Source: a virus
Virus record (IMG/VR): IMGVR_UViG_3300037147_000018
Span: 1-20,380 of that record
Strand: one strand, 5' to 3'
DNA length: 20,380 nucleotides
Shown: positions 6,267-20,380 of the stretch, piece by piece
How positions within the stretch are numbered: the first letter of the stretch is position 1
Layout: each line of letters starts with the position of its first letter
Program-made: the position numbers and the translations under genes
The notes under the pieces: generated by a model
Seen by the model: the letters and a program-made list of their open reading frames with translations, nothing else
What the model was told of the DNA's origin: nothing
Databases searched by the model: none

Positions 6267-6292
6267 TACCTGCCTAAGGTCTTCAGATCGTC

Positions 6293-6300
6293 TCTAAATA
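6293..6300 (+). promoter_or_regulatory. Late-promoter-like octamer TCTAAATA
   Basis: It matches the T4 late -10 consensus TATAAATA at 7 of 8 positions. The identical octamer occurs at 11062-11069, again at a minus-to-plus operon switch. It lies about 290 nt before the tail-tube-type gene, so it would give a long leader. Activity with this phage's gp55 is inferred. Confidence 0.35.
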
Positions 6301-6407
6301 CATGAGAGACATTGATATGGATACAACCTCTGGAAAAGGCAGGATCTTAGAGTCGTTTCAAAATCAAAAACGATCTCCAGCGAGTCAGCTATGATCTATT
6401 TGATCTG

Positions 6408-6436
6408 ATCTTAGCAGAGATGATTGATGCTGTCAA
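6408..6436 (-). promoter_or_regulatory. Second minus-strand sigma70-like promoter candidate
   Basis: TTGACA (6436-6431), a 17-nt spacer, then TAAGAT (6413-6408) on the minus strand, about 140 nt upstream of the 99-residue gene. It would act in tandem with the stronger promoter near 6542-6569. The -10 matches TATAAT at 4 of 6 positions. Confidence 0.4.
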
Positions 6437-6483
6437 GCATGAGATGCAAGTTTGAAACGAATTCGTCAAGAGGCGTTCAGAGG

Positions 6484-6515
6484 GTATCAGAGTATCTAGG
6501 TATCTTATAGATACT
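6484..6515. repeat. GTATC direct repeats with inverted copy (operator-like)
   Basis: Three direct GTATC copies about 8 nt apart (beginning 6484, 6492 and 6500) are followed by the inverse AGATAC (6509-6514). AGTATCTA (6491-6498) pairs perfectly with TAGATACT (6508-6515). Alternatively GTATCT (6500-6505) pairs with AGATAC (6509-6514). The cluster lies just downstream of the main minus-strand promoter and over the TATAGATA octamer, so it could be a protein-binding site or two competing hairpins. Confidence 0.5.
6506..6513 (+). promoter_or_regulatory. Late-promoter-like octamer TATAGATA before the tail-tube-type gene
   Basis: It matches the T4 late consensus TATAAATA at 7 of 8 positions and lies 75 nt upstream of the structural gene start, a sensible distance for a late promoter used by gp55. 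It falls inside the inverted repeat at 6491-6515. Confidence 0.42.
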
Positions 6516-6541
6516 AATGGTCTCTTGCGCTTACACTGTTC

Positions 6542-6569
6542 ATTGTAGCGTGGATTTTGAATTTGTCAA
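6542..6569 (-). promoter_or_regulatory. Strong sigma70-like early promoter for the left block
   Basis: On the minus strand, TTGACA (6569-6564), a 16-nt spacer and TACAAT (6547-6542). The -35 is embedded in CTACTTGACAA, shared with the other two minus-strand promoter candidates. Its transcript would carry a leader of about 270 nt through the repeat cluster before the first gene. Confidence 0.7.
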
Positions 6570-6587
6570 GTAGGTATAGGAGAGTAG

Positions 6588-7199
6588 ATGTCATTGCAAC
6601 TTCCCGCAGGAATAGGTATAGTCCAGAACCAGCCTACGAACCTAAACTTCTTGGCAACACACCGTTTCGTAGTGCAATTCTGGCGATGCCCTGCGATTCA
6701 ATACTTCGTCCAGGAGTGCAACCTGCCGGGTATCGCAATGGGCAACGCAAGCCAACCAACCCCGTTTGTAGACATACCTCGACCCGGTGATAAGGTCGTC
6801 TTTGAAGACTTCACCATGAGCTTCCCTGTTGACGAAAACATGCAAAACTACCGAGAGATCGCCAGTTGGATCGTCGCTCTTGGTTTTCCCCGTTCTTATG
6901 GACAGTATGCCGAAATTGCGGCATCGTCGGTCGGCACCACGTCGAACATCACATTGATGATCCTGGATTCTCATAACCAGCCCCAGCACACCGTCACTTT
7001 TACCGGCGCATTCCCCCATGCCCTCTCTGGGATTCAGTTTGACACGAAAGTACCTGATACGACCATTCCTATCGCCACTGCGTCTTTTAAGTATGTCTAT
7101 TGGGAACTCGATTCTACGGTTGTTAATTATCAGGATCAAACCGTGATTCAGAGCGTTAACGACCCGTCCACTATCGTAACTCAAGCCGATTCTCAGTAA
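6588..7199 (+). CDS. Tail-tube-type structural protein (T4 gp19/gp54 fold family)
   Basis: A 203-residue virion protein, probably the tail tube subunit or a tube-like baseplate protein. Its central part carries QECNLPGIAMGNASQPTPF (about 42-60) and DIPRPGDKVVFEDFTMSFPV (about 62-81), followed by DENMQNYREIASWIVALGFP. This NLPG...TPF...PGD...F.VDE.....EI..W pattern is the one I associate with tail-tube proteins of T4-like cyanophages. Length is close to T4 gp19 (163 aa), with a longer C-terminus. AGGAG sits 5 nt before the ATG. It is the first plus-strand gene after the control region and is followed by uvsY. Whether it is gp19 itself or a paralog is not settled. Confidence 0.78.
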   Translation: MSLQLPAGIGIVQNQPTNLNFLATHRFVVQFWRCPAIQYFVQECNLPGIAMGNASQPTPFVDIPRPGDKVVFEDFTMSFPVDENMQNYREIASWIVALGFPRSYGQYAEIAASSVGTTSNITLMILDSHNQPQHTVTFTGAFPHALSGIQFDTKVPDTTIPIATASFKYVYWELDSTVVNYQDQTVIQSVNDPSTIVTQADSQ

Positions 7200-7241
7200 A
7201 GTAGACAGATTTCAAATCAATGGTATCATCATTAAAGGAAA

Positions 7242-7682
7242 ATGCAACTAGAAGAATACCATGCAATGGTTCCTCAGGATCTTGCCATCAGAAAAGATCA
7301 GTTGAACGATGAGTCCGCCCGCACCTACCAGATTCATGACAAATTCTTGAAATATTGGCAGCACGAATTGAATGAACTGCGTCGCATGAGTCGTGGAATG
7401 AATAGCTTGGTCAAGAAAAAAACCGAGTACTATCTTGGAAAAAGCGATCCAGAAGTTTACAAAGAGAAGCCGTTCAATTTGAAAATCAAGCCAATAAAAT
7501 CCGATCTAAATTTGTATCTGAACGCCGACCCGGACATACAACGGGCGCAAGAGATAATTGACGTACAAGAAACCAAGGTCACCTATCTTAGAGAAACACT
7601 CAACCAGATCAACCGACGTGGCTATGAGATTCGAGAAATCAGAGAAGACAATCAATTCAAGTTTCCTAACAACGTCGCATAA
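7242..7682 (+). CDS. uvsY: UvsY-like recombination mediator
   Basis: In T4, UvsY loads the UvsX recombinase onto gp32-coated single-stranded DNA. This 146-residue protein (T4 UvsY: 137) is almost entirely helical. An N-terminal segment KYWQHELNELRRM (about 38-50) precedes KKKTEYYLGKSDPEVYKEK (about 57-75), equivalent to the ARLDYYSG region of T4, then a KPIKSDL...LNADPDIQ stretch and a long C-terminal helix ending NRRGYEIREIRED. AAAGGA lies close to the ATG. It precedes the GIY-YIG gene by one base and then uvsW, the normal uvsY-uvsW neighbourhood. UvsX and gp32 are not in the window. Confidence 0.9.
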   Translation: MQLEEYHAMVPQDLAIRKDQLNDESARTYQIHDKFLKYWQHELNELRRMSRGMNSLVKKKTEYYLGKSDPEVYKEKPFNLKIKPIKSDLNLYLNADPDIQRAQEIIDVQETKVTYLRETLNQINRRGYEIREIREDNQFKFPNNVA

Positions 7683-7683
7683 G

Positions 7684-8160
7684 ATGTTTCATGACGATGA
7701 TTATCTTGCATATCTACAAACAATTGACCCGTCCCTTTGTGCGGTCTTCATGGAACAAAACGGCAAAAGTGGTGTGTACGCCGTTGTTTCAAAGACGCTC
7801 AATAAAGGATATATTGGCATGTCCAAAGATTTAATGCGGCGCTGGCTCAGCCACTACGTGAGTATGTTGGACGGTCAACATAATGCGTCTTTGGTGCAGG
7901 CTGCACACGACCAATACGGTATTGATGATTTTGAATTTGTTGTGCTCGAATACGTCCCTTATGAACCGGGTTCGACCAAACTTCTGTTGGCTGAGCGCAA
8001 ATGGAAACTTAAAACGGATGCGAATAGATTGCTCAATAATCTGGGTGATAGAGTCATGAACACATCATTACAAAACGGCAAAACAAAACAACATACGAAA
8101 CTGTCTGAACAGCGTAAAGAGTATCAAGACTGGAAAAAAACGCTGGTCTGGTTAAATTAA
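7684..8160 (+). CDS. GIY-YIG homing-type endonuclease
   Basis: A 158-residue GIY-YIG nuclease. The catalytic module is visible as SGVYAVV (about 29-35), KGYIGMSKDLMRRW (about 41-54, with Arg52/53), His57 and the metal-binding Glu104 in LLAERKW. A short basic C-terminal tail could bind DNA. There is no Seg-type NUMOD or HTH tail of usual length, so specificity may be limited. It is inserted between uvsY (1-nt gap) and uvsW (29-nt gap), genes otherwise adjacent in T4-like phages, which suggests a mobile free-standing nuclease. The ATG has no good ribosome site and may depend on coupling to uvsY. Confidence 0.85.
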   Translation: MFHDDDYLAYLQTIDPSLCAVFMEQNGKSGVYAVVSKTLNKGYIGMSKDLMRRWLSHYVSMLDGQHNASLVQAAHDQYGIDDFEFVVLEYVPYEPGSTKLLLAERKWKLKTDANRLLNNLGDRVMNTSLQNGKTKQHTKLSEQRKEYQDWKKTLVWLN

Positions 8161-8189
8161 CCCGTAAATGCAGCACCTACATACTGGCA

Positions 8190-9803
8190 GTGTCAGAGAC
8201 TCTCTATATTTCAAAGTTCGACGAAACGCATGTCTGTGTGACCGGCGACCAGGCCGCTTTGCGTGAAATGTCAGATCGTTTCGCTTACATAGTCGAGGGC
8301 GCTGCATTTATGCCTTCGGTTCAAAACCGTTATTGGGACGGAAAGAAGCGGCTGTTCGATCAGAGATCGGGTAAGTTGTATTTCGGCTTGCATCCGTATG
8401 TCAAACAGTGGTGCGACGAAAATGATTACGAATGTGTCTATGAAGATCCACTCGACGTTGAGACGGCTTTCTCTGTAACCGAATGCCAACGCATGTTTGA
8501 GGCACTTCAGTTATCTCGAACGGCGGACGAAGGTCGAGTTGATTTAGTGCCGCATGACTTTCAAGAGAGAGCTATCATTCACGCAATCCAAGCAAATCGC
8601 AGCTTGTTGCTTTCACCCACAGCATCAGGCAAATCACTCATCATTTACGTGTTGATGCGTTACTACCTTGCAAAAACCAAAGGCAAGGTTTTGATCGTGG
8701 TGCCCACCAGCAATCTTGTCAATCAAATGTTTGATGACTTCAGGGACTACGCCGACCGACTCCAATGGGACGTAGAAAAGAATTGTCATTGCCTGCACGA
8801 AGGCTCAGAGAAGACCACAGAGAAACGGGTGGTCATTTCGACGTGGCAATCGTTGGCTGTCAAGGAACGGCTCCCTAAAGATTTAAGAGCCAAGATGAGC
8901 AAGTTCCAGATCAAGGAATGGAATAAGAAGGCCGAATACATCATGGATCAAAAGTATTTTGATGATGTAGAAACTGTCTTTGGCGACGAAGCCCACTTGT
9001 TTGCAGCCGATGAACTCAGTGGTGTGATGACTAAGTTGGTCAATGCTAGATTTCGGATTGGAACAACTGGCACACTGAAAGATTGCAAAGTCAATCATAT
9101 GATCCTGGAAGGTCTATTCGGGCCGGTGTACCAAACCACTACGACCCGTCAACTCATAGACGACGGCCAAGCCGCTCAGTTAGAGATCAACATTCTTCAA
9201 TTACAGTACAGCGACGAAGAGCGTAAAGCGTGTAAGAAGAAGACATATCAGGAAGAAATGGATTTCCTGCAATCACACGAGCGCCGCAACAACTTCATTT
9301 GTAATTTGGCAATGTCTTTGAAGGGTAATACATTAGTCCTTTATGACAAAGTGGAGAAACACGGACAGATCATTCACCAAATGATTGCCGACCGATTAGA
9401 AAAAGATCGTAAGTTGTTTTTCATTCATGGAGAAGTGAAGCCGGATGAACGCAATAAAGTGCGTTATATTGCCGAAGGCGAAACTAACGCTATCATTGTG
9501 GGTAGTTATGGCACATACGCAATGGGTGTAAACATTCGCAACATCGACAATGTGATTTCTGTCGCAACGGGTAAGAGCAAAATTCGCTTGTTCCAATCAA
9601 TTGGCCGTGGTCTGCGCCTGTCGTCTCGCAAGACAAAAATGCGCTGGTACGATATTAGTGACGACCTTTCCGTTTGGAACAAAGCACACACAGAAGTGCA
9701 TGATAACTATTCATTGCACCATTTGGAAGAACGAATTGCGTATTATGCGCAAGAGAGTTTTGATTACAAAAAATACAAAATAGAGTTAACAGATCATGAA
9801 TAA
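8190..9803 (+). CDS. uvsW: UvsW-like superfamily 2 helicase
   Basis: ATP-dependent RNA/DNA branch-specific helicase; in T4 it migrates Holliday junctions, rewinds DNA and unwinds R-loops at the shift from origin to recombination-dependent replication. The 537 residues (T4: 587) show an N-terminal substrate-binding region (about 1-118), PHDFQERAI (about 121-129), Walker A SPTASGKS (142-149), VPTSNLVNQM (about 171-180), Walker B/DEAH box GDEAH (265-269), GTTGTLKD (motif III-like) and the arginine-finger motif QSIGRGLR near 468-475. The start is GTG with only a weak ribosome site; no upstream in-frame ATG is suitable. The end overlaps the next gene by 8 nt. Confidence 0.93.
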   Translation: MSETLYISKFDETHVCVTGDQAALREMSDRFAYIVEGAAFMPSVQNRYWDGKKRLFDQRSGKLYFGLHPYVKQWCDENDYECVYEDPLDVETAFSVTECQRMFEALQLSRTADEGRVDLVPHDFQERAIIHAIQANRSLLLSPTASGKSLIIYVLMRYYLAKTKGKVLIVVPTSNLVNQMFDDFRDYADRLQWDVEKNCHCLHEGSEKTTEKRVVISTWQSLAVKERLPKDLRAKMSKFQIKEWNKKAEYIMDQKYFDDVETVFGDEAHLFAADELSGVMTKLVNARFRIGTTGTLKDCKVNHMILEGLFGPVYQTTTTRQLIDDGQAAQLEINILQLQYSDEERKACKKKTYQEEMDFLQSHERRNNFICNLAMSLKGNTLVLYDKVEKHGQIIHQMIADRLEKDRKLFFIHGEVKPDERNKVRYIAEGETNAIIVGSYGTYAMGVNIRNIDNVISVATGKSKIRLFQSIGRGLRLSSRKTKMRWYDISDDLSVWNKAHTEVHDNYSLHHLEERIAYYAQESFDYKKYKIELTDHE

Positions 9804-10260
9804 ACAAGTAGAAGAAGAAGCACCCGAGTCGATTCGGATAGAACCAGAGCCAGAAGCCACTTACGAATATCGTTTCCTGAAGCTCACTAACGGTGATGAC
9901 ATTCTTTGTCAAGTTCCGGTCATTCAAGTGATGCAGGAAATGCTTTTGGTTCGGTATCCATTGAAAGTCTCAACAATGTTCGACCCGTCCTCTGAAGAAG
10001 CCATTTATCTATTCACACCGTGGGTGCCCTTTACATCCCAAGAATTGATTACGATCAACAAGCTGACCATCGTGACTTACACGACAGTTCGGGACATGGT
10101 GAAGAACATCTATGAACAGAAAATTGAATCCATGAAGAAGCAATCCTTACAGGCAGTTTCGCTTCCAAATCATCCCTCGTCTGACGTAGATCCAGTTATC
10201 GACCCGGATGTGGATGAAGATGCGGTGCCGGGTCCGGTGAAGAAGCCGTGGCTGAACTGA
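9796..10260 (+). CDS. Sm-like (LSm) beta-barrel candidate next to uvsW
   Basis: A 154-residue acidic protein. The core (about 24-110) has an Sm1-like stretch YRFLKLTNGDDILCQVPVI and an Sm2-like stretch with LLVRYPLKVSTMF, followed by LFTPWVPFT and INKLTIVTYTTV. The L..NGD.I.....V then NPLKV-like pattern resembles the small Sm-like proteins carried by T4-like cyanophages and their relatives near uvsW. The ends are disordered: an acidic N-terminus and a Pro/Asp-rich tail. If Sm-like, it may bind RNA or assemble as a ring. The ATG overlaps the uvsW stop by 8 nt. It ends only 4 nt before the convergent minus-strand islet. Fold inferred from pattern. Confidence 0.6.
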   Translation: MNKQVEEEAPESIRIEPEPEATYEYRFLKLTNGDDILCQVPVIQVMQEMLLVRYPLKVSTMFDPSSEEAIYLFTPWVPFTSQELITINKLTIVTYTTVRDMVKNIYEQKIESMKKQSLQAVSLPNHPSSDVDPVIDPDVDEDAVPGPVKKPWLN

Positions 10261-10264
10261 TGAT

Positions 10265-10459
10265 TCATCGAAAGAAGGCGTTATAGACGATTGGGAACCC
10301 GATGATGAAGGTGAGGACCACACCAACGGCTAGAATAGCCCAAACGATTACCACACTGAATATCAGTCGGAAGATGCTGGCGATCATTCCACCCAAAGTC
10401 AAGGTAGATGACCGGAACAGTAGCAATCCGATTACCAAACCAATCAGTAAGAGGAACAT
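10265..10459 (-). CDS. Small two-pass membrane protein (64 aa)
   Basis: It starts MFLLLIGLVIGLLLFRSS. Two strongly hydrophobic segments (about 2-15 and 29-60, the latter perhaps two helices) are joined by a short polar turn. It is the last gene of the minus-strand islet; the ATG overlaps the preceding reading frame by 16 nt, with AGG 7 nt upstream. Its stop faces the stop of the Sm-like gene across 4 nt, leaving no room for an ordinary terminator. Holin-like in size, but no evidence ties it to lysis. Confidence 0.68.
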   Translation of the reverse strand: MFLLLIGLVIGLLLFRSSTLTLGGMIASIFRLIFSVVIVWAILAVGVVLTFIIGFPIVYNAFFR

Positions 10460-10641
10460 GGTTTACCTGTGACGCAATCGCATTCCTCATTCACCCACAC
10501 AGAGCAGTCACTAGCACATGAGGCAATGCTATTTGATGCTTCGGACACGGACCTGATCGAAACGCCCACAGACATCGTGAATTGATCTGGATGCAGTTCT
10601 TTGTTCTTTCTAACTCTCGCAGCTACTTGACCGTGTGTCAT
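10444..10641 (-). CDS. Small phage protein, possibly frameshifted
   Basis: The frame as read gives 65 residues. The N-terminus MTHGQVAARVRKNKELHPDQ matches a pattern I know from tiny phage proteins that continue with a Cys-Leu-Trp and Pro-Cys-Pro-x-His zinc-like module. In this frame such a module is absent; instead a different Cys-rich tail follows. Shifting one base after the HPD codons gives NSRCLWAFRSGPCPKHQ and a stop at 10493-10491. The in-frame version may be the true product, a frameshift mutant, or one product of a shift. The ATG overlaps the upstream stop as ATGA. Confidence 0.5.
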   Translation of the reverse strand: MTHGQVAARVRKNKELHPDQFTMSVGVSIRSVSEASNSIASCASDCSVWVNEECDCVTGKPCSSY

Positions 10642-10976
10642 AGTGCCCTCCGCTTTCGTGCTAAGTAGTCTGCCAACTCAATATCACCGACCGTAAGTCT
10701 GGCTACTTTCCGTGTCCTGTCAAAAACCGCCCGGTTACCATTCAAGCCGTATTGACAAAGTTGCGGAATTAAAGTCTTATACTCGCTCCGGTTCTCAGGA
10801 TGTATATCTCGGTGGTAATAAACAGCAGTACGGACATGCTGTAGATGAGCAGCTTCAATTTCACTAACACGAAACAAACTGCCTGCTCCCTCAATATTTG
10901 CCACACGATCAAATGCAGTCTGAGCCTCCACATACTCTTTTTGAGTCATCAATTCAGGTTCTTGGTAGTCGCTCAT
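10638..10976 (-). CDS. Unknown 112-aa protein heading the minus-strand islet
   Basis: A soluble, mostly helical protein starting MSDYQEPELMTQKEYVEAQT. It is rich in charged residues and ends with a basic helix (GDIELADYLARKRRAL). No family is recognised. It has a good start: GAGGA lies 4 nt before the ATG. A near-consensus promoter (-10 at 11029-11024) lies about 45-75 nt upstream, predicting a short leader. It is the first of three overlapping genes expressed against the flanking plus-strand core genes. Confidence 0.7.
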   Translation of the reverse strand: MSDYQEPELMTQKEYVEAQTAFDRVANIEGAGSLFRVSEIEAAHLQHVRTAVYYHRDIHPENRSEYKTLIPQLCQYGLNGNRAVFDRTRKVARLTVGDIELADYLARKRRAL

Positions 10977-11023
10977 AGTTCCTCAATCCTGTTCGTATGC
11001 CCCGTCAGGGTCATCATGGTTTC

Positions 11024-11052
11024 ATTGTATCACAGATGGAACTATTTGTCAA
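11024..11052 (-). promoter_or_regulatory. Near-consensus sigma70-like promoter for the minus-strand islet
   Basis: On the minus strand TTGACA (11052-11047), a 17-nt spacer and TACAAT (11029-11024), the best promoter in the window. Its -35 lies in CTACTTGACAA, and the wider string ATCTACTTGACAA is shared with the promoter at 4272-4301, as is TTCCATCT in the spacer. The predicted leader is about 40 nt. Confidence 0.78.
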
Positions 11053-11061
11053 GTAGATGCA

Positions 11062-11069
11062 TCTAAATA
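11062..11069 (+). promoter_or_regulatory. Late-promoter-like octamer TCTAAATA before gp55
   Basis: Identical to the octamer at 6293-6300 and one base from TATAAATA. It lies about 130 nt before the gp55 start and is adjacent to the divergent early promoter. A separate plus-strand TTGACA at 11090-11095 has no convincing -10. The remaining stretch to 11202 holds only a small GGCC-TGT-GGCC hairpin just before the gp55 ribosome site. Confidence 0.35.
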
Positions 11070-11202
11070 AAGTCTGCGTCTGCATCAACTTGACAGAATC
11101 GAAAGATGTAGTCTAATGGTACTGGGGCAAACACCCTACACATCGAATACTCCGCACACGTCGCTGTTTTAATTTTTGTTTTGGCCTGTGGCCGGAGAAA
11201 GG

Positions 11203-11838
11203 ATGGAAGCACCAAAAACCGAATCACCAAAAACCAAAGTTCACTATGTCGAAAATCGTGCTCTCTACGAAGCACTTGTAGAGTGGCAGAAACATATCCG
11301 AAGCAACACCCGGAAGAAGCTCCCCAGACCCCCTCTCCCCGATTTCGTCGCTGAATGCATGGTCAAGATGGCCAATCGGCTTTCTCAAAAGGCCGGGTTC
11401 GTCAACTACACCTATCGTGAGGACATGATCGGCGATAGTTTGGAAAGTTGCCTACGGTACATTCATAATTTCGACCCGGCAAAGAGCACCAATGCTTTCG
11501 CTTACATTACGCAGATCATCCACAATGCTTTCATCCGTCGAATTCAGAAGGAACAAAAGCAGCTTTACGTCAAAATGAAGATTATCGATCAATCTAATTT
11601 TGTGGATTCTTATGAAAGACAGGATGGCGACGGCACAAATTACAACAATAGCTATGTCACTTATCTCCAGGAAAATAAAGGTGACATTATTACAAAATTC
11701 GAGAATTGGAAAGAAGGCAAGAAACAAAGAGCGAACGCCAAAAAATCAGCGGCGACAATCGACAATTTGTTTGAAGACAATGGTAAAGGTGTGGCCGTCG
11801 CAACCAAGCCGGTGAAGAAAACCAAAAGAAAGAAGTAA
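11203..11838 (+). CDS. 55: Late-transcription sigma factor, T4 gp55-like
   Basis: A divergent sigma70-family factor that directs host RNA polymerase to late promoters in T4-like phages, together with the sliding clamp. It has 211 residues (T4: 185). The conserved block reads PDFVAECMVKMANRLSQK (about 41-58), then DMIGDSLESCLRYIHNFDPA (about 69-88) and the region-2-like NAFAYITQIIHNAFIRRIQK (about 92-111), followed by EQKQLYVK. The C-terminus is basic and low in complexity (PVKKTKRKK), longer than in T4. GGAGAAAGG precedes the chosen ATG; a TTG at 11176 would add nine residues but is less likely. It should recognise octamers such as those noted here; gp33 and gp45 are not in the window. Confidence 0.92.
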   Translation: MEAPKTESPKTKVHYVENRALYEALVEWQKHIRSNTRKKLPRPPLPDFVAECMVKMANRLSQKAGFVNYTYREDMIGDSLESCLRYIHNFDPAKSTNAFAYITQIIHNAFIRRIQKEQKQLYVKMKIIDQSNFVDSYERQDGDGTNYNNSYVTYLQENKGDIITKFENWKEGKKQRANAKKSAATIDNLFEDNGKGVAVATKPVKKTKRKK

Positions 11839-11841
11839 AAC

Positions 11842-12018
11842 GTGAAACACGACTATGTAAGCAAGTCGAATGCTGCCGGGTACCTCTGGCAATGTAGTAA
11901 GTGTTCGAGAACAAGTCCCTATCCGAGTCAAGTTGATGACAGTGATTGTCCCGGAGCGCCTTGTCTCTGCGTATACAAACAAAATTTGTGTCAATTACAC
12001 GGAAAGAAGAAATCATGA
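11842..12018 (+). CDS. Small zinc-finger-type protein (58 aa)
   Basis: It starts MKHDYVSKSNAAGYLWQCSK from a GTG three bases after the gp55 stop. It contains WQCSKCSRTS (about 16-25), then CPGAPC and CLC (about 36-43) and a final C...H, giving at least two Cys pairs for zinc. A similar WxCxxC...C layout is frequent in tiny phage proteins. Its stop overlaps the next ATG as ATGA. Function unknown. Confidence 0.62.
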   Translation: MKHDYVSKSNAAGYLWQCSKCSRTSPYPSQVDDSDCPGAPCLCVYKQNLCQLHGKKKS

Positions 12019-12419
12019 AGAAACGGAAAGAAATCACTGCGGAAAACATCAAGAAGGTCACTAAAGCTGCTCAATCAAAGGCACAACAGGAAGCAGCCGA
12101 AAAAGCTAAAAAAGAGAAACTACAGGACGCTGAGAATGATCGTTGGCTAAAAACAACCTTTTTAGACGAAGTGATAGACAATGCTCTTACTAGAATTATA
12201 TGTAAAGCCGAGCAATGTAAGTCCTCTACCACCTACGTTGTCGGGTACAATAATGCAGGCTCAACTGTAGCTCCATTGTTGGTTAATGCTCTGCGACAAA
12301 AAGGATTTAAAGCTGTCGCTAAACAAGAATCTTACCCGTCTTATGCCGGATGCGCTGATAATGGGTATGTAAATGCCCATGATGCTGGTTTTAGACATTG
12401 GGTGGAGATTTCCTGGTAA
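12015..12419 (+). CDS. Unknown 134-aa protein with basic N-terminal helix
   Basis: It starts MKKRKEITAENIKKVTKAAQ, continues as a Lys/Ala/Glu-rich helix to about residue 40, and then has an alpha/beta-looking domain (IICKAEQCKSSTTYVVGYNN, then LRQKGFKAVAKQ). No motif is recognised; the N-terminal half may be a coiled coil. The ATG overlaps the upstream stop. A longer reading from 11946 would overlap the small zinc-finger gene and is rejected. The stop and the next ATG share one base. Confidence 0.68.
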   Translation: MKKRKEITAENIKKVTKAAQSKAQQEAAEKAKKEKLQDAENDRWLKTTFLDEVIDNALTRIICKAEQCKSSTTYVVGYNNAGSTVAPLLVNALRQKGFKAVAKQESYPSYAGCADNGYVNAHDAGFRHWVEISW

Positions 12420-12628
12420 TGGGTTGGTGTAGCGGTACCGATATTTTTGATGTGGTAGTCGGTGCCCTTTTGGATAAGAAAACCACAAAAGAGGGAGTTA
12501 TTTCCTCTCTGATCGTGGCTCTAGAAGGCCATGATTGGGACTGTCAAGGCGACAGTGAATATTTTGAACATCCTGTGGTGCGCAAGGCAATGAAGGCCCT
12601 TCATCCCGAATGGTATAAAGATGAATAG
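12419..12628 (+). CDS. Small conserved-type phage protein (69 aa)
   Basis: It starts MGWCSGTDIFDVVVGALLDK and ends with EGHDWDCQGDSEYF...HPEWYKDE. The MGWCSxTxIFD opening and the DWDCQxDSxY motif form a signature I have seen in many small phage and plasmid proteins of unknown function (recalled, unsearched). It lies between the 134-residue gene (one-base overlap) and gp47 (8-nt gap), so it is probably co-expressed with the recombination gene. Confident gene, unknown role. Confidence 0.75.
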   Translation: MGWCSGTDIFDVVVGALLDKKTTKEGVISSLIVALEGHDWDCQGDSEYFEHPVVRKAMKALHPEWYKDE

Positions 12629-12636
12629 AAAGGAAA

Positions 12637-13722
12637 ATGAAAATTTGCTTACTGACTGACACACATTTTGGCTGGAAAAACGATTCTCTCGTTTTCGACG
12701 ATTACTTCAAGCGGTTCTTTAACGAAGTATTCTTCCCTACCTTGGAAGAGCGCCGCATCAAAACGGTTGTTCATTTAGGCGATCTGTTCGACCGGCGAAA
12801 GTACATCAACTTTCACATCTTACATCGTTGTCGAATGGACATTTTAAACAGATTGGAAGCTATGGGTATCACGATGCATGTGACTATCGGCAATCACGAT
12901 ACCTATTTTCGTGATTCCAATAACGTCAATTCCGTGACGGAGCTTTGTCAAGGCTACCCGAACCTCAAGATTTACGAAGAGCCGGAAGAGATCACCTTGG
13001 GGAGCCTACGCATTCTCTTGCTGCCGTGGATGAACCCTATGAATACTGCGCCGACGCTGAGTATAGTGAAGGCAAGCAAGGCCCCGGTGGTCATGGGCCA
13101 CCTGGAGATTGCCGGTTTCAACTACGACCGCTCAGTCGTCTGCGAACACGGATTGGACAGGAAGCTCTTCAAGAAATTCAAGAAAGTCTTCAGTGGGCAT
13201 TTTCATACACAATCGATGGACGGCGGCATTCATTTTCTCGGATCGCCCTATGAGATGACCTTCGCTGATACCGGCGACCCTCGGGGATTTCACATTTTCG
13301 ACACAGAGACATTGGAACTCGAATTCATACCCAATCCAAATCGGATGTTTCATAAAATCGTTTATGACGACCGAGATTCGGCAACTCATATGGTAATGCT
13401 GTCTCAAGACTTCAATCATCTGGAAAAGACGCAAGTCAAGATCAACGTGGCACACAAGACCGACCCGTATCTTTACGACCGCTGGCTGTCTAGGATCGAA
13501 GGAGTTAACCCGGACACACTGCAAATCATCGAAAGCTTTTCACTGGGTGTAGATGAAGAAGTAGATGACCAATTTGGAGATTTTGAGAAAGGAGAGGTTG
13601 TTTTGACGGACACATTGCAAGTATTAAACAGCTATGTGGACGCAATGACCATTGATCTTGACAAAAATCGAATGCGTGAGATCATGAAGATGCTGTATTT
13701 AACGGCCACTAGGGTCAATTGA
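12637..13722 (+). CDS. 47: Recombination nuclease subunit gp47 (Mre11/SbcD-like)
   Basis: Catalytic subunit of the T4-type gp46-gp47 complex, which resects DNA ends to feed recombination-dependent replication and degrades host DNA. The 361 residues (T4: 339) carry all Mre11 phosphodiesterase motifs: TDTHFG (D8, H10), HLGDLFDRR (D49), GNHD (85-88), GHLE (154-157) and GHFH (187-190). A capping/C-terminal region follows, with an acidic stretch (about 309-328). AAAGGA sits 3 nt before the ATG. Its partner gp46 is on the same strand, but six small genes lie between them. Active-site residues look intact. Confidence 0.95.
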   Translation: MKICLLTDTHFGWKNDSLVFDDYFKRFFNEVFFPTLEERRIKTVVHLGDLFDRRKYINFHILHRCRMDILNRLEAMGITMHVTIGNHDTYFRDSNNVNSVTELCQGYPNLKIYEEPEEITLGSLRILLLPWMNPMNTAPTLSIVKASKAPVVMGHLEIAGFNYDRSVVCEHGLDRKLFKKFKKVFSGHFHTQSMDGGIHFLGSPYEMTFADTGDPRGFHIFDTETLELEFIPNPNRMFHKIVYDDRDSATHMVMLSQDFNHLEKTQVKINVAHKTDPYLYDRWLSRIEGVNPDTLQIIESFSLGVDEEVDDQFGDFEKGEVVLTDTLQVLNSYVDAMTIDLDKNRMREIMKMLYLTATRVN

Positions 13723-13780
13723 TAACGAAAGCCCAACATCGAAAACTTTGCCAAAGGATAAACGTAGTTTGGTTGAGATA

Positions 13781-13924
13781 ATGTCATTTTCAGTGAAACC
13801 GGGTTGGACGATAGTCGATACTGATTACAGTCAATTGATCCCTTATCCCAAGAAATCAGAAAAGCCAGTTGAAATTGACGACGACCTAAGTTGGCTGATC
13901 GAGGATGAAGATGCCAGTATTTGA
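13781..13924 (+). CDS. Tiny acidic protein (47 aa)
   Basis: It reads MSFSVKPGWTIVDTDYSQLI followed by an acidic tail (EIDDDLSWLIEDEDASI). No ribosome site of note and no recognised family. It lies between gp47 and the next gene, with its end overlapping the latter by 14 nt. A 58-nt gap after gp47 precedes it. Its acidic surface could mimic nucleic acid, but that is speculation. The call rests on position and tight packing. Confidence 0.5.
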   Translation: MSFSVKPGWTIVDTDYSQLIPYPKKSEKPVEIDDDLSWLIEDEDASI

Positions 13925-14279
13925 ACGTAGTTGTCCTGCAATGACGCCCCGTGCCGATGTATACAAAGTCATCGACGGCGAGCGGGAGTATCAACAAACC
14001 CTCCCTCCCAACCGCAGCGAAGACCCTACTCGTCGTCGCACTGTGGCGGAATATTTGACCATGATGGATCATTATGTCCGTCATGCTCAAGACGCTTGGA
14101 CTATGCGAGCCGGGATTGAGTATCCATTGAACGACATGCGCAAGATCGCTGCACTGGCGGTTCGGTGCATGGAAGAGTGGGGAGCGTTGCCTAGAACTCC
14201 AGTGGGGAGCGAGCCGGAGCTTACTTTCGCTGAAGCACTGAGCACAATAAATAATCCAAATTTTTGCATGGAGCCGTAA
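13911..14279 (+). CDS. Conserved-type phage protein, 122 aa
   Basis: It starts MPVFERSCPAMTPRADVYKV. The C-terminal half carries YVRHAQDAWTMRAGIEYPLN and DMRKIAALAVRCMEEWGALPR. A helical DxxRKIAALAxRCMEExG segment is a recurring signature of an uncharacterised phage family (recalled). GAGG with 6-nt spacing selects this ATG over the one at 13905, where spacing would be zero. The stop is one base from the Nudix start. Soluble; no catalytic motif seen. Confidence 0.72.
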   Translation: MPVFERSCPAMTPRADVYKVIDGEREYQQTLPPNRSEDPTRRRTVAEYLTMMDHYVRHAQDAWTMRAGIEYPLNDMRKIAALAVRCMEEWGALPRTPVGSEPELTFAEALSTINNPNFCMEP

Positions 14280-14280
14280 A

Positions 14281-14712
14281 ATGAACAGCACAGAATACGT
14301 AGCCGGTTTCCTTTTTGACTCGTACCTTGAATACGTCGTTTTGATCCGCAAGGAAAAACCAGCTTGGCAGAAAGGCAAGCTGAACGGTGTAGGCGGCAAG
14401 ATCGAAGAAGGTGAGACACCGGCACAAGCGATGCGACGTGAGTTCTTGGAAGAGACCGGAATGGACGTGGAGCACTGGAATCAATACGTCACTTTGACGG
14501 GTGAAGGTTTCACGGTCCATTTCTTCCATGCCCGTTCGCATGATCTGTTTCTTGTGAAGTCCACAACGGACGAAACGGTACGGGTGTATGAAATTGAAAA
14601 TTTGAGCCGTCTTCAGACGATTCCAAATCTTCAATGGCTCATTCCGATGGCAATGACAATGGGAAGCGAATCCGCAGCGGCATTCGTAGTGACGGAGCAA
14701 AAGGCAGCATGA
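14281..14712 (+). CDS. Nudix hydrolase
   Basis: Hydrolyses nucleoside diphosphates linked to another moiety; likely substrates are oxidised nucleotides, ADP-ribose or a capped/NAD-type compound. The 143-residue protein has a perfect Nudix box from G39 to M61: GX5E (GKIEEGE), then TPAQAMR and REFLEETGM. The N-terminus AGFLFDSYLEYVVLIRKEKP and KGKLNGVGGKI are typical of small MutT-like enzymes. It sits in the gp47-gp46 interval, and its stop overlaps the following ATG as ATGA. A PRTase-like gene is elsewhere in the window, but no direct pathway link is shown. The substrate is unknown. Confidence 0.9.
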   Translation: MNSTEYVAGFLFDSYLEYVVLIRKEKPAWQKGKLNGVGGKIEEGETPAQAMRREFLEETGMDVEHWNQYVTLTGEGFTVHFFHARSHDLFLVKSTTDETVRVYEIENLSRLQTIPNLQWLIPMAMTMGSESAAAFVVTEQKAA

Positions 14713-14897
14713 AAATACCAATAAAACTGAACAAAGAGAAAATGGAGCGCTTTAATACGCTCGTGGCTCAATTGATTGAGGAAGGCTTTGACTTGGGGTT
14801 GAACAATCAACAACAAACTGCAACGCTCTATCTGAATAACACGTCATCGATGTACTCGCTCAATCTGCACTCTAACGGTACGTGGACGCTAGAGTAA
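14709..14897 (+). CDS. Small protein (62 aa), unknown
   Basis: It starts MKIPIKLNKEKMERFNTLVA. A helix rich in Glu and Leu is followed by beta segments (TATLYLNNTSSMYSLNLHSN). No family is recognised. The ATG overlaps the Nudix stop (ATGA), and the stop shares one base with the next ATG. An in-frame start at 14634 would lie inside the Nudix gene and is rejected. Confidence 0.6.
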   Translation: MKIPIKLNKEKMERFNTLVAQLIEEGFDLGLNNQQQTATLYLNNTSSMYSLNLHSNGTWTLE

Positions 14898-15052
14898 TGG
14901 GTTACCTGCCTTTGGAAAGTGACGAACCATGCGGGCATGAGCACTGGGAAGTGTGTCGTTGTGTTTGTCATGAAGATGGCGGGTTGGCGGCGGTTCATTG
15001 TGTTCCGTGCTGTGTATTGTGCCTGAGTTGTGGACGGAACATTGTTCGATAA
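14897..15052 (+). CDS. Small Cys-rich protein (51 aa)
   Basis: Nine cysteines in 51 residues: CGHEH (about 12-16), CRCVCH (about 20-25), CVPCC (about 36-40) and CLSCG (about 43-47). This layout could hold two zinc ions. It starts MGYLPLESDEPCG and ends in GRNIVR. The ATG overlaps the upstream stop by one base, and the next gene begins right after its stop. The Cys/His clustering makes chance unlikely. Role unknown; a zinc-ribbon adaptor or transcription/nuclease effector is possible. Confidence 0.68.
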   Translation: MGYLPLESDEPCGHEHWEVCRCVCHEDGGLAAVHCVPCCVLCLSCGRNIVR

Positions 15053-15214
15053 ATGGAACTATACTGGCTGTACATTCCGTTACATGTCATGAGCATAGAT
15101 GGCAAAACTACTTACATCTATCATGACGGAAAGTATTTTAAAGATTATGCAGAATGGTCTCGTTATTATGACAGCCGGGGACAATTAAGAAGTGATCCTA
15201 TTCAAAAGTGCTAG
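15053..15214 (+). CDS. Small Tyr-rich protein (53 aa)
   Basis: It starts MELYWLYIPLHVMSIDGKTT. The middle YIYHDGKYFKDYAEWSRYYD is rich in Tyr and Asp. The ATG follows the previous stop directly. The 3' end overlaps the first 23 nt of gp46 in another frame. No recognised family. The overlap suggests coupling of translation to gp46, whose GTG start is otherwise weakly supported. Confidence 0.52.
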   Translation: MELYWLYIPLHVMSIDGKTTYIYHDGKYFKDYAEWSRYYDSRGQLRSDPIQKC

Positions 15215-17015
15215 TTGGAAAAATTTTCTTGCTTCTGGGAATATTCCAACCGTAATCAAACTCGATCAGGCTTCGACCACGTTGGTCTTGGGTGTCAATG
15301 GCAGCGGCAAGAGCACACTCCTGGACGCCATTTGCTTTGGCCTGTACAAGAAGCCATTCCGTAAAATCAAGCTTGAACAGATCGTTAACACGATCAACAA
15401 TGCCGATTGCGAAGTCGTCGTTGAATTTGAGATCGGTACAAAGCAATACAAGGTCACTCGTACCTTAAAGCCAGCCGCAATGGAACTTCTGATCGACGGG
15501 AAGCCCCGCCCTCAAGAAGCCGCTACCAAAGACGATCAAGCATTCCTGGAACAGGACATCCTAAAGGTCGATTACGACTCTTTCACACAAGTTGTGATTC
15601 TCGGAAACGCAAAATACCTACCCTTCATGCAACTTCCGGCTGGTAAGCGCCGGGAGTTTATAGAAACCATTCTGGACATCGGTGTATTCTCCACGATGAA
15701 TGAAATTCTCAAAGAGAAAATGGATGATGTCAAAGATGATCTGAAAACGAATGGAACGTCTGTCATCTCGATCAAAGAGCAAATCGCCCTCATCCAAGGG
15801 TTCATTGCCAAGTTGGAAGCCGAACAGAAGAAAGCAGCCCAAGAAACTGAAAATCAAATCACGGAATTACAAGTTCAAATCGAAGAACGGGTGACGGCAA
15901 CCGACGCTCTCAAACTAGAATTGGTTTCTCTTCAAGCAACCGTCCAGGAATCGGTCATTGTTGAAGAAGATCGGGATGCCCATCAAAAAGAAAAACAAGA
16001 CATTATGGCGGCAGTTCAGACCGATGTAAAGCTCTTGGATGCCGACAAGAAAAAGATCAAATCCGATATTGAAAAAGCCAACAAGGTTCTTTCTTTTTAT
16101 AACAATACGTTAGTGTGTGATACATGCGGGCAAGAGATCAATGCATCGCACCGCACTGGTATTATTTCATCAACACAAACTGAAATTGATGACTATGAAA
16201 AAAAGATTGAAAAATTGGATACTGACCGCATCCGAATAATTGAAAATGGCAAACAGTCATGTAAGAACATCGATGAGAAGCTTGCGACTTTAACACCCCG
16301 GTTGGAAGAAGCTGCAAAGCAGAAGAAAGACTTGGAAAAGTTGCGCATGACTCTCTCTGAGAGAGCAAACGAGAAGAAAAATCTTGAAACCCGTATCGAT
16401 ATGTGCCGCCAGCTACTTGAACGCAAACCAAGTGGAAATATCGAAGAACAGACCAAAAAACTGACTGATAGCCATGCCAAGCTAGTTCGTCTGGAAGGCC
16501 AAAAGAAAGAACATCTGGAGACGCAGCAATTCTACATAGCCGCTGGCGTGATGCTCAAGGATTCGGGCATCAAGGCAGCGATCATCCGACAATACCTACC
16601 GGCCATCAACAAACTTGTCAACAAGTACTTGGCCGCACTTGATTTCTTCGTGTCCTTCTCTCTCGACGAGAGTTTTGATGAAACTTTCAAAGCCCGTCAC
16701 CGGGATACTCTTCAGTACAATAGTTTTAGTCAGGGAGAAAAACTTCGCATCGACTTGGCGCTTCTGTTCGCATGGCGTGAGATTGCCCGTCAGAAGAACT
16801 CCTGTGCAACCAATTTGCTTATTCTGGACGAAGTAATCGACGGGTCAATGGACGCCAATGGCACCGACCTGTTCATCAAATTATTGAATGATAACTTGCA
16901 AGGATCAAATGTTTTCGTCATCTCGCATAAGAACGATGCTGCGCTAGATAAGTTTCGGGCTACACTCAGGTTCGCCCGAGACAAGAACTTTTCCAAGTTG
17001 ATTGAGGAACTATGA
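15192..17015 (+). CDS. 46: Recombination ATPase subunit gp46 (Rad50/SbcC-like)
   Basis: SMC-like ATPase that partners gp47 in DNA-end resection. The 607 residues (T4: 560) show Walker A GVNGSGKST (34-42), the Q-loop region near 130-140, long coiled-coil arms (about 180-480) with a zinc-hook CDTC (C309, C312) at the turn, signature FSQGEKLRID (about 511-520), Walker B LLILDEVIDG (about 542-551) and the switch VISHK near 572-576. The GTG start (MILFKSASWKNF) has only AAGAA upstream and overlaps the previous small gene by 23 nt, so translation may be coupled. The stop overlaps the next ATG as ATGA. All ATPase motifs look intact. Confidence 0.95.
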   Translation: MILFKSASWKNFLASGNIPTVIKLDQASTTLVLGVNGSGKSTLLDAICFGLYKKPFRKIKLEQIVNTINNADCEVVVEFEIGTKQYKVTRTLKPAAMELLIDGKPRPQEAATKDDQAFLEQDILKVDYDSFTQVVILGNAKYLPFMQLPAGKRREFIETILDIGVFSTMNEILKEKMDDVKDDLKTNGTSVISIKEQIALIQGFIAKLEAEQKKAAQETENQITELQVQIEERVTATDALKLELVSLQATVQESVIVEEDRDAHQKEKQDIMAAVQTDVKLLDADKKKIKSDIEKANKVLSFYNNTLVCDTCGQEINASHRTGIISSTQTEIDDYEKKIEKLDTDRIRIIENGKQSCKNIDEKLATLTPRLEEAAKQKKDLEKLRMTLSERANEKKNLETRIDMCRQLLERKPSGNIEEQTKKLTDSHAKLVRLEGQKKEHLETQQFYIAAGVMLKDSGIKAAIIRQYLPAINKLVNKYLAALDFFVSFSLDESFDETFKARHRDTLQYNSFSQGEKLRIDLALLFAWREIARQKNSCATNLLILDEVIDGSMDANGTDLFIKLLNDNLQGSNVFVISHKNDAALDKFRATLRFARDKNFSKLIEEL

Positions 17016-17209
17016 GTCACCCGGCCAACACTCAGTACGCACCACACGATTGTGGAGATACAAGTTGCGAGTACTGCGCTCACAACGATGAGACGTACAC
17101 GACAATTGTTAAAGACATACAACGGGAGATCGACCGTGACATCATTCGGAGTCTTATCAAGGAAATGGAACAAGAAAACGACACATTGGAGTGGTTAATA
17201 GATGAGTAA
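17012..17209 (+). CDS. Small protein with CxxC and acidic helix (65 aa)
   Basis: It starts MSHPANTQYAPHDCGDTSCE, giving C14 and SCEYC (about 18-22), a possible metal site. A long acidic helix follows (VKDIQREIDRDIIRSLIKEM). The ATG overlaps the gp46 stop as ATGA. The end overlaps the next gene by 8 nt. No family is recognised; a coiled-coil partner of gp46 is possible but not shown. Confidence 0.65.
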   Translation: MSHPANTQYAPHDCGDTSCEYCAHNDETYTTIVKDIQREIDRDIIRSLIKEMEQENDTLEWLIDE

Positions 17210-17372
17210 AATAATACGATACACCGTTATTAAAGCTGATACAGTAGAGGAATTGATTACAGCCGTGAACGATTTCATCAACGAAGAAGGCGAAGCATGG
17301 CAGGCGTCTGGGAACATGACGACCAATCCCTATGGCTCCAAATTTTTCCAGACACTTTACAGGGACATCTAA
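17202..17372 (+). CDS. DUF1737-like protein (56 aa)
   Basis: It starts MSKIIRYTVIKADTVEELIT. The pattern YxVIKADTxEELIxxVNxFI followed by AWQASG fits DUF1737-type proteins, small beta-alpha modules common in phages and bacteria whose usual signature is xYxVV......LEExVNxxIxxGWQPxGG. Length is typical. Function unknown. The next gene begins directly at its stop. Confidence 0.68.
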   Translation: MSKIIRYTVIKADTVEELITAVNDFINEEGEAWQASGNMTTNPYGSKFFQTLYRDI

Positions 17373-17543
17373 ATGAAAAACGTTTTGAAATTTTTGTTGA
17401 TATTGACGACTATCCACATTGGATATTACCTATACTATCTTTCCGGTTTGCACTGGTACACCTTGTTGGGATTATTGCTTGGACCAACGCTCACTTTTGC
17501 CGTTCTGATATATTTTTTTGGCCGAGAGGCAATAAATGAGTAA
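17373..17543 (+). CDS. Small two-pass membrane protein (56 aa)
   Basis: It starts MKNVLKFLLILTTIHIGYYL. Two hydrophobic segments (about 4-24 and 30-50) flank a Ser-Gly-Leu-His turn, with a short charged tail GREAINE. The ATG follows directly on the previous stop; the end overlaps the next gene by 8 nt. No family known. A different-frame reading of the same stretch (17297-17539) shows a less plausible composition. Confidence 0.65.
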   Translation: MKNVLKFLLILTTIHIGYYLYYLSGLHWYTLLGLLLGPTLTFAVLIYFFGREAINE

Positions 17544-17829
17544 GAAAAAGGTTCTTGAAATCGTACCAGAGCCGATTGTCGATTCACGTCACGATAAGAA
17601 GTACCGGCCATCGCTCAAAAAACATCTTGCCTTGGTTGAGAAGTGGAGCGACGTGAGTGCTAAAGCTGCCGCTGGGTATCCCGAACAAGTCACAGCCGAA
17701 CAGCAAGAGCTTTACAATCAAGCCGTTCGATTGGCTGAAGAATGCAGAGAAGTTTATGACCAAATTATTGCCATGAACTTGTATCCGGCCCCACAGCATC
17801 CTTTGATTCCTGTTTTGGATTTGAGTTGA
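17536..17829 (+). CDS. Unknown helical protein (97 aa)
   Basis: It starts MSKKKVLEIVPEPIVDSRHD. The middle is Ala/Glu-rich and helical (LALVEKWSDVSAKAAAGYPE, then QLYNQAV/RLAEECREVYDQ). There is no membrane segment and no recognised motif. It overlaps the previous gene by 8 nt, and its stop shares one base with the methyltransferase ATG (TGATG), so the two are likely translated together. Helical phage protein of unknown role. Confidence 0.65.
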   Translation: MSKKKVLEIVPEPIVDSRHDKKYRPSLKKHLALVEKWSDVSAKAAAGYPEQVTAEQQELYNQAVRLAEECREVYDQIIAMNLYPAPQHPLIPVLDLS

Positions 17830-19121
17830 TGAAATATCAGATTTTTGAGGGAGACAACAAAATTGTTCTCCAAAAACTTATCGAAGATGGCGTGCAAGTA
17901 GACGCAGTTGTGACCGATCCGCCTTATGGACTTCGATTCATGAATCGAAAATGGGATTACGATGTCCCATCAGTTGAGTTTTGGGAATTGGTTTTGAAAA
18001 TTTTGAAACCGGGTGGTCATGTACTTTCATTTGGTGGGACTCGCACCTACCATCGAATGGTGGTCAATTTGGAAGACGCCGGATTTGAAATTCGTGACCA
18101 AATCGTTTGGATGTATGGAAGTGGTTTCCCCAAGTCAATGAACATAGGAAAATCTATTGATAAGGCAGCGGGTGTTGAACGTAAAATTGTAGGGTTCGAT
18201 GAAACACGATTTAGGGCTAATCGCACATATGAAGGCGGCGCAAAACATGAGGAGAGTGTTGAAGCTGTATACGTCGGACACGGCTTTGATCGTCGGGATA
18301 ACGGAGCAACAATAACCACACCGGCCACACCTGAAGCTATTCAATGGCAAGGATGGGGCACCGCACTCAAGCCAGCTATCGAACCCATCGTACTTGCACG
18401 AAAGCCGCTTGAAGAACCAACTGTTGCTGCTAACGTCCTGAAGCACGGAACTGGTGGGATCAATATTGATGAATGTCGAGTTAAAACAACCGACAAGCTG
18501 GGTGGTGGAGCAACTTCCAGTGACAAAGCTGTCATTGCAATAGAAGGCTTCGACAGGCCGTGGATGCATGACGAAACCAAGCTCAAAGAACATCAAGAAA
18601 AGATGCGCAAGAATGTCGTAAAAGCAGAGTCGTTGGGCCGATTCCCAGCCAACGTGATCTTGGACGAAGAAGCCGGGGAGATGTTGGACGAACAGACAGG
18701 AATTTCAACTTCGCCAACAAAGCCCGTTAAACAAGGTGGCCAAAAGAGTGTGGGTGGAATCATGAATAATGTCGGCGGGCCACGGCATGGGTTTGGTACA
18801 GGTTTTGGTGATTCTGGTGGTGCATCCCGCTTCTTCTACTGTGCCAAAGCGTCAAAGAAAGACCGTCGTGGGTCAAAACATCCAACCATCAAACCACTTG
18901 CCCTTATGCGCTACCTTTGCCGCTTGATTACACCACCCGGTGGAACCGTACTCGATCCCTTTGCCGGATCAGGAACAACCGGCGAAGCTGCCGCTTTAGA
19001 GGGCTTCCAGTCGATCCTTATTGAAAGGGAAGCTGAGTACATCCCTGACATTGAGAAACGCTTAGGAACGACGCCTGAAGCACCAAAGGCATCTTTAGAC
19101 GACCTATTTGAAGAGAACTAA
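17829..19121 (+). CDS. Beta-class DNA methyltransferase (N4-C or N6-A)
   Basis: Transfers a methyl group to an exocyclic amino group of DNA; in a phage it most likely shields the genome from host restriction. The 430 residues begin MKYQIFEGDN. Motif IV DPPYG lies near the N-terminus (30-34); KPGGHVLSFGGTRTYHRM follows (motif V/VI area), and the AdoMet-binding motif DPFAGSGTTGEAA is C-terminal (about 376-388), so motif order is IV...I, as in beta-class enzymes. Further family marks are YGSGFPKSMN, WQGWGTALKP and HPTIKPLALMRYL. The ATG overlaps the previous stop. A degenerate second copy follows downstream. The target sequence cannot be predicted. Confidence 0.92.
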   Translation: MKYQIFEGDNKIVLQKLIEDGVQVDAVVTDPPYGLRFMNRKWDYDVPSVEFWELVLKILKPGGHVLSFGGTRTYHRMVVNLEDAGFEIRDQIVWMYGSGFPKSMNIGKSIDKAAGVERKIVGFDETRFRANRTYEGGAKHEESVEAVYVGHGFDRRDNGATITTPATPEAIQWQGWGTALKPAIEPIVLARKPLEEPTVAANVLKHGTGGINIDECRVKTTDKLGGGATSSDKAVIAIEGFDRPWMHDETKLKEHQEKMRKNVVKAESLGRFPANVILDEEAGEMLDEQTGISTSPTKPVKQGGQKSVGGIMNNVGGPRHGFGTGFGDSGGASRFFYCAKASKKDRRGSKHPTIKPLALMRYLCRLITPPGGTVLDPFAGSGTTGEAAALEGFQSILIEREAEYIPDIEKRLGTTPEAPKASLDDLFEEN

Positions 19122-19273
19122 TGAGGAACATGGAAGTACTAATAACAGAAGAAACCCGTAATGAGCTATTGGAATTTTTGTCTGGACGCAATATGACCGA
19201 TATTTTTCAACCGGCAGACTTGGCCGATCTCATCCACCAAAATGTGTATCGTGTAACGATTGAAGAAGCTTAA
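19121..19273 (+). CDS. Small protein between methyltransferase copies (50 aa)
   Basis: It starts MRNMEVLITEETRNELLEFL, an acidic helix, followed by NMTDIFQPADLADLIHQNVY. The ATG shares one base with the methyltransferase stop, and the stop shares one base with the ATG of the decayed copy. A second ATG three codons later is possible. No family known. It is the only sequence separating the two methyltransferase copies. Confidence 0.55.
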   Translation: MRNMEVLITEETRNELLEFLSGRNMTDIFQPADLADLIHQNVYRVTIEEA

Positions 19274-19759
19274 TGAAGTATCAAATTTTTGAAGGAGACA
19301 ACAAAGTTGTTCTCCAAAAGTTAATTGAAGAGTGGCACCGTTAGCTATGGTAACAAGGCAGGTGGATATTCGTATGCTGGTTCTGAATATGAAGTTGATG
19401 GATTCGTGAAGTCTTGTAAACCTCAAGCACCCAGTAATTATGGTGATTCTGGCGGCGCATCCCGTTTCTACTACTGTGCCAAAGCGTCAAAGAAAGAACG
19501 TCGTGGTAGCAAGCATCCAACAGTAAAACCGCTTGCGCTTATGCGCTATCTTTGCCGGTTGATTACACCACCCGGTGGAATCATACTAGATCCTTTTGCT
19601 GGATCAGGCACGACCGGAGAAGCAGCTTTGTTAGAAGGCTTTGAACCCCTGCTTATTGAATTGGAATCTCAGTACGTGCAGGACATAAAAAGTCGTTTAA
19701 ATGAAGTTGAGAGTAGCGAAAGAGATTTGTTGGCTGATGTATTTGAGGCAAAAATATGA
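19273..19759 (+). pseudogene. Decayed second copy of the DNA methyltransferase
   Basis: The first 18-20 codons (MKYQIFEGDNKVVLQKLIEE) repeat the start of the intact gene; a stop follows after 23 codons (TAG at 19342-19344). Another frame, opening at a TTG at 19325, carries the C-terminal third: GGASRFYYCAKASKKERRG, HPTVKPLALMRYLCRLITPP and DPFAGSGTTGEAA. The DPPY motif and nearly all of the central region are missing. Alignment offsets put the copy 809 nt shorter than the intact one, not a multiple of three, which explains the frame change. A 144-residue C-terminal product could still be made from the TTG but would lack motif IV and be inactive alone. Confidence 0.85.
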
Positions 19760-20190
19760 GTTGTACGAGTTGTGATTGTTCAGCGGAAGCAGTATGTGAC
19801 CATTGTGTGCCCCGTAGAAATCGAGTAGACAAGATGTCTTCTGGCGAATATGCCATCCGAGAAGCCGTACAAGAAGTTGAGGCAATGGGAGCCGACGTGC
19901 GCCTGACCCAAGCTGTGATCCTGTTGGGAGAAGCCAAGGACAAAGTTGCTGATTTCGTGGACGGAATACCCGGTTCTGATGTTCAAACATTTACGAATTG
20001 CGTCACGGTGCCTGAAGGTTCACTATTCTCGAATTGTGTTTTTTATCGTAATGAAGACGATGAAGACAACGATACCAGCGTCAAAGGTGATACTTTATCA
20101 AATCTTGTCTGCGCCGTCATTGCTCTGAGTCTTGCCACTGCAATTGGAATGGTAGTGGGAATCATCATCGGCGCAATTATAGGAAACTGA
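19756..20190 (+). CDS. Cys-rich, C-terminally membrane-anchored phage protein
   Basis: A 144-residue protein in three parts. The Cys-rich start MSCTSCDCSAEAVCDHCVPR (1-20) could hold a metal. The middle helical module SGEYAIREAVQEVEAMGADV (about 29-48) then LTQAVILLGEAKDKVADFVD resembles a module shared by many phage proteins (recalled). After a polar segment there is a C-terminal hydrophobic stretch (about 117-142, AIGMVVGIIIGAIIGN at its end) suited to a tail anchor with Gly-rich packing. The ATG overlaps the end of the decayed methyltransferase. Function unknown; likely membrane-attached with the bulk in the cytoplasm. Confidence 0.72.
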   Translation: MSCTSCDCSAEAVCDHCVPRRNRVDKMSSGEYAIREAVQEVEAMGADVRLTQAVILLGEAKDKVADFVDGIPGSDVQTFTNCVTVPEGSLFSNCVFYRNEDDEDNDTSVKGDTLSNLVCAVIALSLATAIGMVVGIIIGAIIGN

Positions 20191-20252
20191 GGAATTTGTT
20201 GCCTACATACGTACAGGAAGGATTCCATTGGTTGAGAGCGTGGAATGGGTGA

Positions 20253-20380
20253 ATGATGGATACGTTAAAACAAAAAATTTTACAACGCACAGCTAATGTT
20301 GCTGTGATCGGCGGCGGCTACGTTGGTTTACCTTTAGCCGTTGAATTTGGTAAGGTAGGATTTCAGGTTACTATTTTTGA
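20253..20380 (+). CDS. Nucleotide-sugar dehydrogenase, N-terminal fragment
   Basis: Only the first 42 codons are in the window; the frame is open to the right edge. It reads MMDTLKQKILQRTANVAVIG and continues GGYVGLPLAVEFGKVGFQVT, the NAD-binding Rossmann start (GxGYVGLPLA) of the UDP-glucose/GDP-mannose dehydrogenase family. The lead helix and the LAVEFGK sequence are closest to UDP-N-acetylglucosamine 6-dehydrogenase (WbpA-type) enzymes, but substrate class cannot be settled from this fragment. The second ATG (20256) has better spacing from GGGTGA. It suggests a sugar-nucleotide or glycan cluster beyond the edge. The 62 nt before it hold no convincing gene. Confidence 0.85.
   Translation, partial: MMDTLKQKILQRTANVAVIGGGYVGLPLAVEFGKVGFQVTIF

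Follow-up and report, generated by a model that had tools for sequence, protein, structure and literature searches.

An intact DNA methyltransferase gene and the broken copy of a related gene beside it in a phage genome

The window, by which we mean the whole stretch of DNA that was analysed, is a virus record of 20,380 nt. The neighbouring genes for gp46/47-like nuclease subunits, a UvsW-like helicase and a late sigma factor point to a T4-like phage, and gp46 shows about 40% identity to its counterparts in methylotroph and cyanobacterial myoviruses. Downstream of an intact DNA methyltransferase gene, parts of this gene occur a second time, which raises the question of what the second copy is and how it came to lie there. 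The following features were distinguished at the locus.

17829..19121, plus strand: intact DNA methyltransferase gene, 430 aa (Pfam, PHROG, and motif alignment)
19121..19273, plus strand: small 50-aa ORF between the copies (ORF list; no Pfam or PHROG match)
19270..19331, plus strand: retained 5' end of the second methyltransferase (85% direct repeat; 18/20 residues as in the intact copy)
19331..19332, no strand: approximate position of the putative deletion junction (identity collapses after 17887/19331; about 270 parent codons including DPPY missing, frame shifted)
19332..19437, plus strand: presumed remainder of the second methyltransferase's linker (the C-terminal frame is open here; without recognisable counterpart in the intact copy)
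19438..19759, plus strand: retained C-terminal domain with SAM motif I, DPFAGSGTTG (80% direct repeat; ORF 19325-19759 without ATG)

The product of the intact gene matched the Pfam family PF01555 (N6_N4_Mtase) with 106.5 bits (curated cut-off 26.7) over profile positions 1-220 of 221, and PHROG 67 (DNA methyltransferase) over the full length with an E-value of 1e-63. The motifs DPPY (motif IV, residues 30-33) and DPFAGSGT (SAM motif I, residues 376-383) are arranged in beta order. In an alignment of 20 sequences the columns of D30, P31, P32, and Y33 as well as F378, G380, and G382 are invariant, the A and the S of FAGSG being the exceptions. Judged by these sequence features, the gene appears to encode an N6/N4-type phage DNA methyltransferase of the beta order, with DPPY located before FAGSG. 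As can be expected from the family, its product presumably methylates the phage DNA, e.g., as a protection against host restriction. With the beta-order methyltransferases of the CcrM, RsrI, and PvuII type, for which structures have been solved, the C-terminal SAM-binding part can be aligned, the sequence alignment being confined to residues ~345-420; the phage enzyme reached 59 bits and thus remained far below the curated CcrM cut-off of 830 bits.

An earlier note on this DNA had reported that the start of the intact gene recurs downstream, as does the C-terminal third, the latter without gaps. Without making use of its coordinates we recovered two ungapped direct repeats, namely 17826-17887/19270-19331 with 85% identity and 18803-19064/19438-19699 with 80% identity. 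The blastn E-values of 1e-12 for the start and 3e-53 for the C-terminal quarter exclude chance repeats. The edge after position 17887 is sharp, the identity in 30-nt windows falling from 24/30 to 3/30, and at 18805 similarity is gained abruptly in such windows. Between the copies lies a single gene of 50 residues (ORF 19121-19273), as had been stated.

The second copy (19273-19759) comprises 487 nt vs. 1293 nt of the intact gene, i.e., 806 nt are missing over the whole gene, and 809 nt net in the register of the C-terminal part; neither of the two is divisible by three. The start frame of the second copy, MKYQIFEGDNKVVLQKLIEEWHR, has 23 codons and ends at the stop codon 19342-19344. In the frame of the C-terminal part only 19325-19759 is open; this ORF begins with TTG, and no ATG precedes the conserved domain. 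A single frame from start to stop is therefore absent, the two ends being in different frames. DPPY was not found in 19273-19759 and about 270 central residues are gone. This agrees with the earlier description of a copy that had lost DPPY and the central region, a net 809 nt, and its reading frame. Whereas the intact copy resembles PHROG 67 and PF01555 from end to end and possesses DPPY, the SAM motif in the C-terminal part, and a variable linker inside, the open frame of the second copy matched PF01555 at profile positions 150-220 only, the C-terminal SAM-binding part, and has no catalytic motif. With homologous ends in the original order, a missing middle, and a broken frame, the second copy classifies as a gene remnant. 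Very probably it is not an active methyltransferase, judging from the family; methylation by the remnant is very unlikely because DPPY and the central strands are missing.

Such an arrangement might also be produced if two methyltransferase alleles had been fused during assembly, and the copies do have exact runs in common, 27 and 22 nt long, which could confuse an assembler. The breakpoint at 19331, however, lies away from both runs. Furthermore, the separately assembled contig IMGVR_UViG_3300047539_000049 (60,860 nt) is identical to the window over positions 5192-20380 and 99.86% identical over 1704-5217; it carries the same two methyltransferase copies and no other, although the two samples may be related. 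Since the arrangement recurs in this second contig, whose sequence departs from that of the window further left, we consider an assembly error unlikely and a fusion of alleles hardly credible. Further left, the region 513-1703 was seen to be strain-variable: the window contains an HNH endonuclease ORF (662-1408, minus strand) and the near-identical contig G001 about 920 nt of other sequence. The RNA ligase is encoded by one open frame in the window (1-669, minus strand) and by two overlapping frames in the twin contig (L203:7236-8371).

The relationship of the two copies was assessed with a set of 76 distinct full-length methyltransferases. Over the first 20 residues the copies agree in 18 positions, and the best of the 76 relatives reaches 10. 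Over the C-terminal 87 residues the copies are 80% identical to each other, a small margin over the nearest outsider, the methyltransferase of the viral contig L018 (IMGVR_UViG_3300049926_000093) with 78% and 76%, which resembles neither copy to a notable degree in its N-terminus and linker. In the tree the two copies are sisters with moderate support (SH-aLRT 78). Because the ends are each other's closest match and the copies are placed as sisters, they appear to share a private ancestor within the sampled relatives. This supports the view that the second copy is either a paralogue that would have arisen by duplication within the genome or a copy taken from a very close relative, both of which fit the data.

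A different origin had been favoured in the earlier note, where the stretch 19346-19441 was described as having no evident counterpart in the intact copy. According to this explanation the second copy would be the remnant of a distinct, separately acquired methyltransferase or a mosaic formed by recombination with a relative. Indeed, 19346-19441 gave no significant match to the intact gene, and the family is widespread and mobile, 994 phage records matching it. The unmatched piece, however, appears to occupy the place of the linker, which is hypervariable throughout the family and predicted to be disordered. The family shows almost no conservation at residues 292-325 of the intact copy, which directly precede GDSGGASRF, and residues 262-339 have a pLDDT <50 in a structure model of moderate overall confidence. 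The spacing from DEQxG to GDSGG is 29-36 residues in the relatives; the remnant keeps 38 residues before GDSGG in the C-terminal frame. From its position, its length, and its open frame, 19332-19437 would be the remnant's own linker.

The similarity of this middle segment to the linkers of the relatives was no better than that of shuffled sequences, 51 of 300 shuffles reaching its mean score and 105 of 300 its best score. The intact copy's own linker barely beats the shuffles either (12/300 for the mean and 37/300 for the best score). As the linker is hypervariable family-wide and predicted to be disordered, the missing counterpart is uninformative and consequently cannot serve as an argument that the copy recombined with a different relative. 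In general, unmatched sequence in the hypervariable linker before GDSGGASRF is a pitfall and must not be read as a sign of recombination. In addition, none of the relatives found is as near to either end as the intact copy is, and IMG/VR, the GTDB genomes, and the phage records yielded no better donor. A separate or mosaic origin is thus unlikely in our opinion. BLAST alignments of P0002 extended over its residues 2-128 with L039, Jinkies, and mycobacteriophages, but as matches of the middle segment these extensions were rejected, since a shuffle test showed that they are carried by the C-terminal domain.

Counted by first, second, and third codon position, the copies differ at 12/8/33 sites of the C-terminal part and at 2/0/7 sites of the N-terminal part. 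For the C-terminal part dN is 0.13 and dS 0.71, resulting in a dN/dS of 0.18 (0.19 on the family alignment). These values are in the upper part of the range for close pairs of the tree (about 0.03-0.22), higher values being reached by certain other pairs whose codons are saturated or poorly aligned. Because the changes are mostly at third positions and dN/dS is 0.18-0.19, the copies appear to have diverged while coding, which suggests that they are old and evolved as working genes under purifying selection. A recent gene conversion of the ends was ruled out, the synonymous divergence being high in both. Of 46 conserved columns the remnant departs from five, as does the intact copy, and the column score of the remnant is -89, with a median of -88 for the relatives. 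As the C-terminus of the remnant still fits the family profile, the break looks much younger than the divergence of the copies, with little decay since; that the C-terminus is still in use is a less likely alternative. From the earlier suggestion of a tandem duplication with a decayed second copy, the broken copy beside an intact one can be retained, but not a recent duplication: with a dS of ~0.7 and a dN/dS of ~0.19 the copy would have been broken later and would have decayed little.

The possible use of the C-terminus deserves consideration. The frame 19325-19759 could encode a functional stand-alone SAM-binding protein or could be joined to the 5' piece by frameshifting; its 144 codons are open, the conserved columns are retained, dN/dS is low, and short PHROG families limited to the C-terminal part exist. 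A low dN/dS, however, is already predicted by a recent break alone. TTG is the sole start, an ATG being absent and a ribosome-binding site not visible, the 20-nt overlap of the frames contains no slippery site on inspection by eye, and the catalytic DPPY strand is missing. The earlier note had raised the possibility that the C-terminal frame is a conserved stand-alone gene in related phages, but no comparable stand-alone ORF of high similarity was found in the other fetched loci, where the short ORFs are either distant (35-46% identity, 43-118 residues) or cut by the contig end. Hence we regard a functional fragment as very improbable. There is at best a slim chance that the 144-codon fragment, which is free of decay apart from the deletion, has been preserved as a small protein with a SAM-binding domain or as a gene-conversion donor for the intact SAM domain.

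We consider it probable that two working, related genes diverged for a long time and that the downstream copy was then broken by an internal deletion. The phage lineage would formerly have had two related beta-order N6/N4-type methyltransferase genes side by side, both going back to one ancestor, either through a duplication or through uptake of the copy of a close relative. Long evolution as functional enzymes would have brought the conserved parts to about 80% DNA identity and rendered the linker unrecognisable. Later, a single out-of-frame deletion of about 0.8 kb near 19331 would have removed residues ~21 to ~288 of the downstream copy, including the catalytic DPPY strand, and put the remainder out of frame, leaving behind an inactive relic. 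Remnant scans of IMG/VR, the GTDB genomes, and the phage records did not find an intact second gene, and the only near relative, G001, carries the same broken copy. As the relatives found do not include one whose second gene is intact, we infer the deletion and its exact endpoints. A comparison of the neighbouring genes for synteny in related phages did not reveal the ancestral state, because the twin contig alone shares the downstream 144-aa gene and the gp46 relatives are only ~40% identical.

The second copy is an ordinary gene remnant and no new kind of system; methyltransferase remnants are ordinary products of phage gene turnover. The titles and abstracts of the literature on duplicated or decayed phage methyltransferases contained nothing specific. 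The locus clearly illustrates how methyltransferase genes turn over in an undescribed T4-like phage, in which one of two genes was probably broken after long divergence; no wider principle is at stake. At L051, a viral contig, as in the window, a piece of a related methyltransferase recurs downstream (121 nt of the 3' end, 91% identity), but in that contig it forms an in-frame fusion with a fragment read by eye as terminase-like (L051:7096-7413), and a 5' end is lacking. Nested in the linker of the methyltransferase gene of this locus (L051:4627-6399) is an HNH-like ORF (5577-6029). At L082, 76 nt from within the methyltransferase gene (5845-5920) recur just past the gene (6428-6503) with 95% identity.

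Some further observations concern other parts of the window. A NUDIX hydrolase gene (14281-14712, plus strand) is situated within the recombination/replication cluster. A GIY-YIG homing-endonuclease-like ORF (7558-8160, plus strand) overlaps the preceding ORF 7242-7682. The uncharacterised ORF 2812-3483 on the minus strand, for which a Pfam search gave no match, encodes repeated Cys-containing segments, and two 90-nt tandem repeats with 74% identity are located inside it at 3010-3189.
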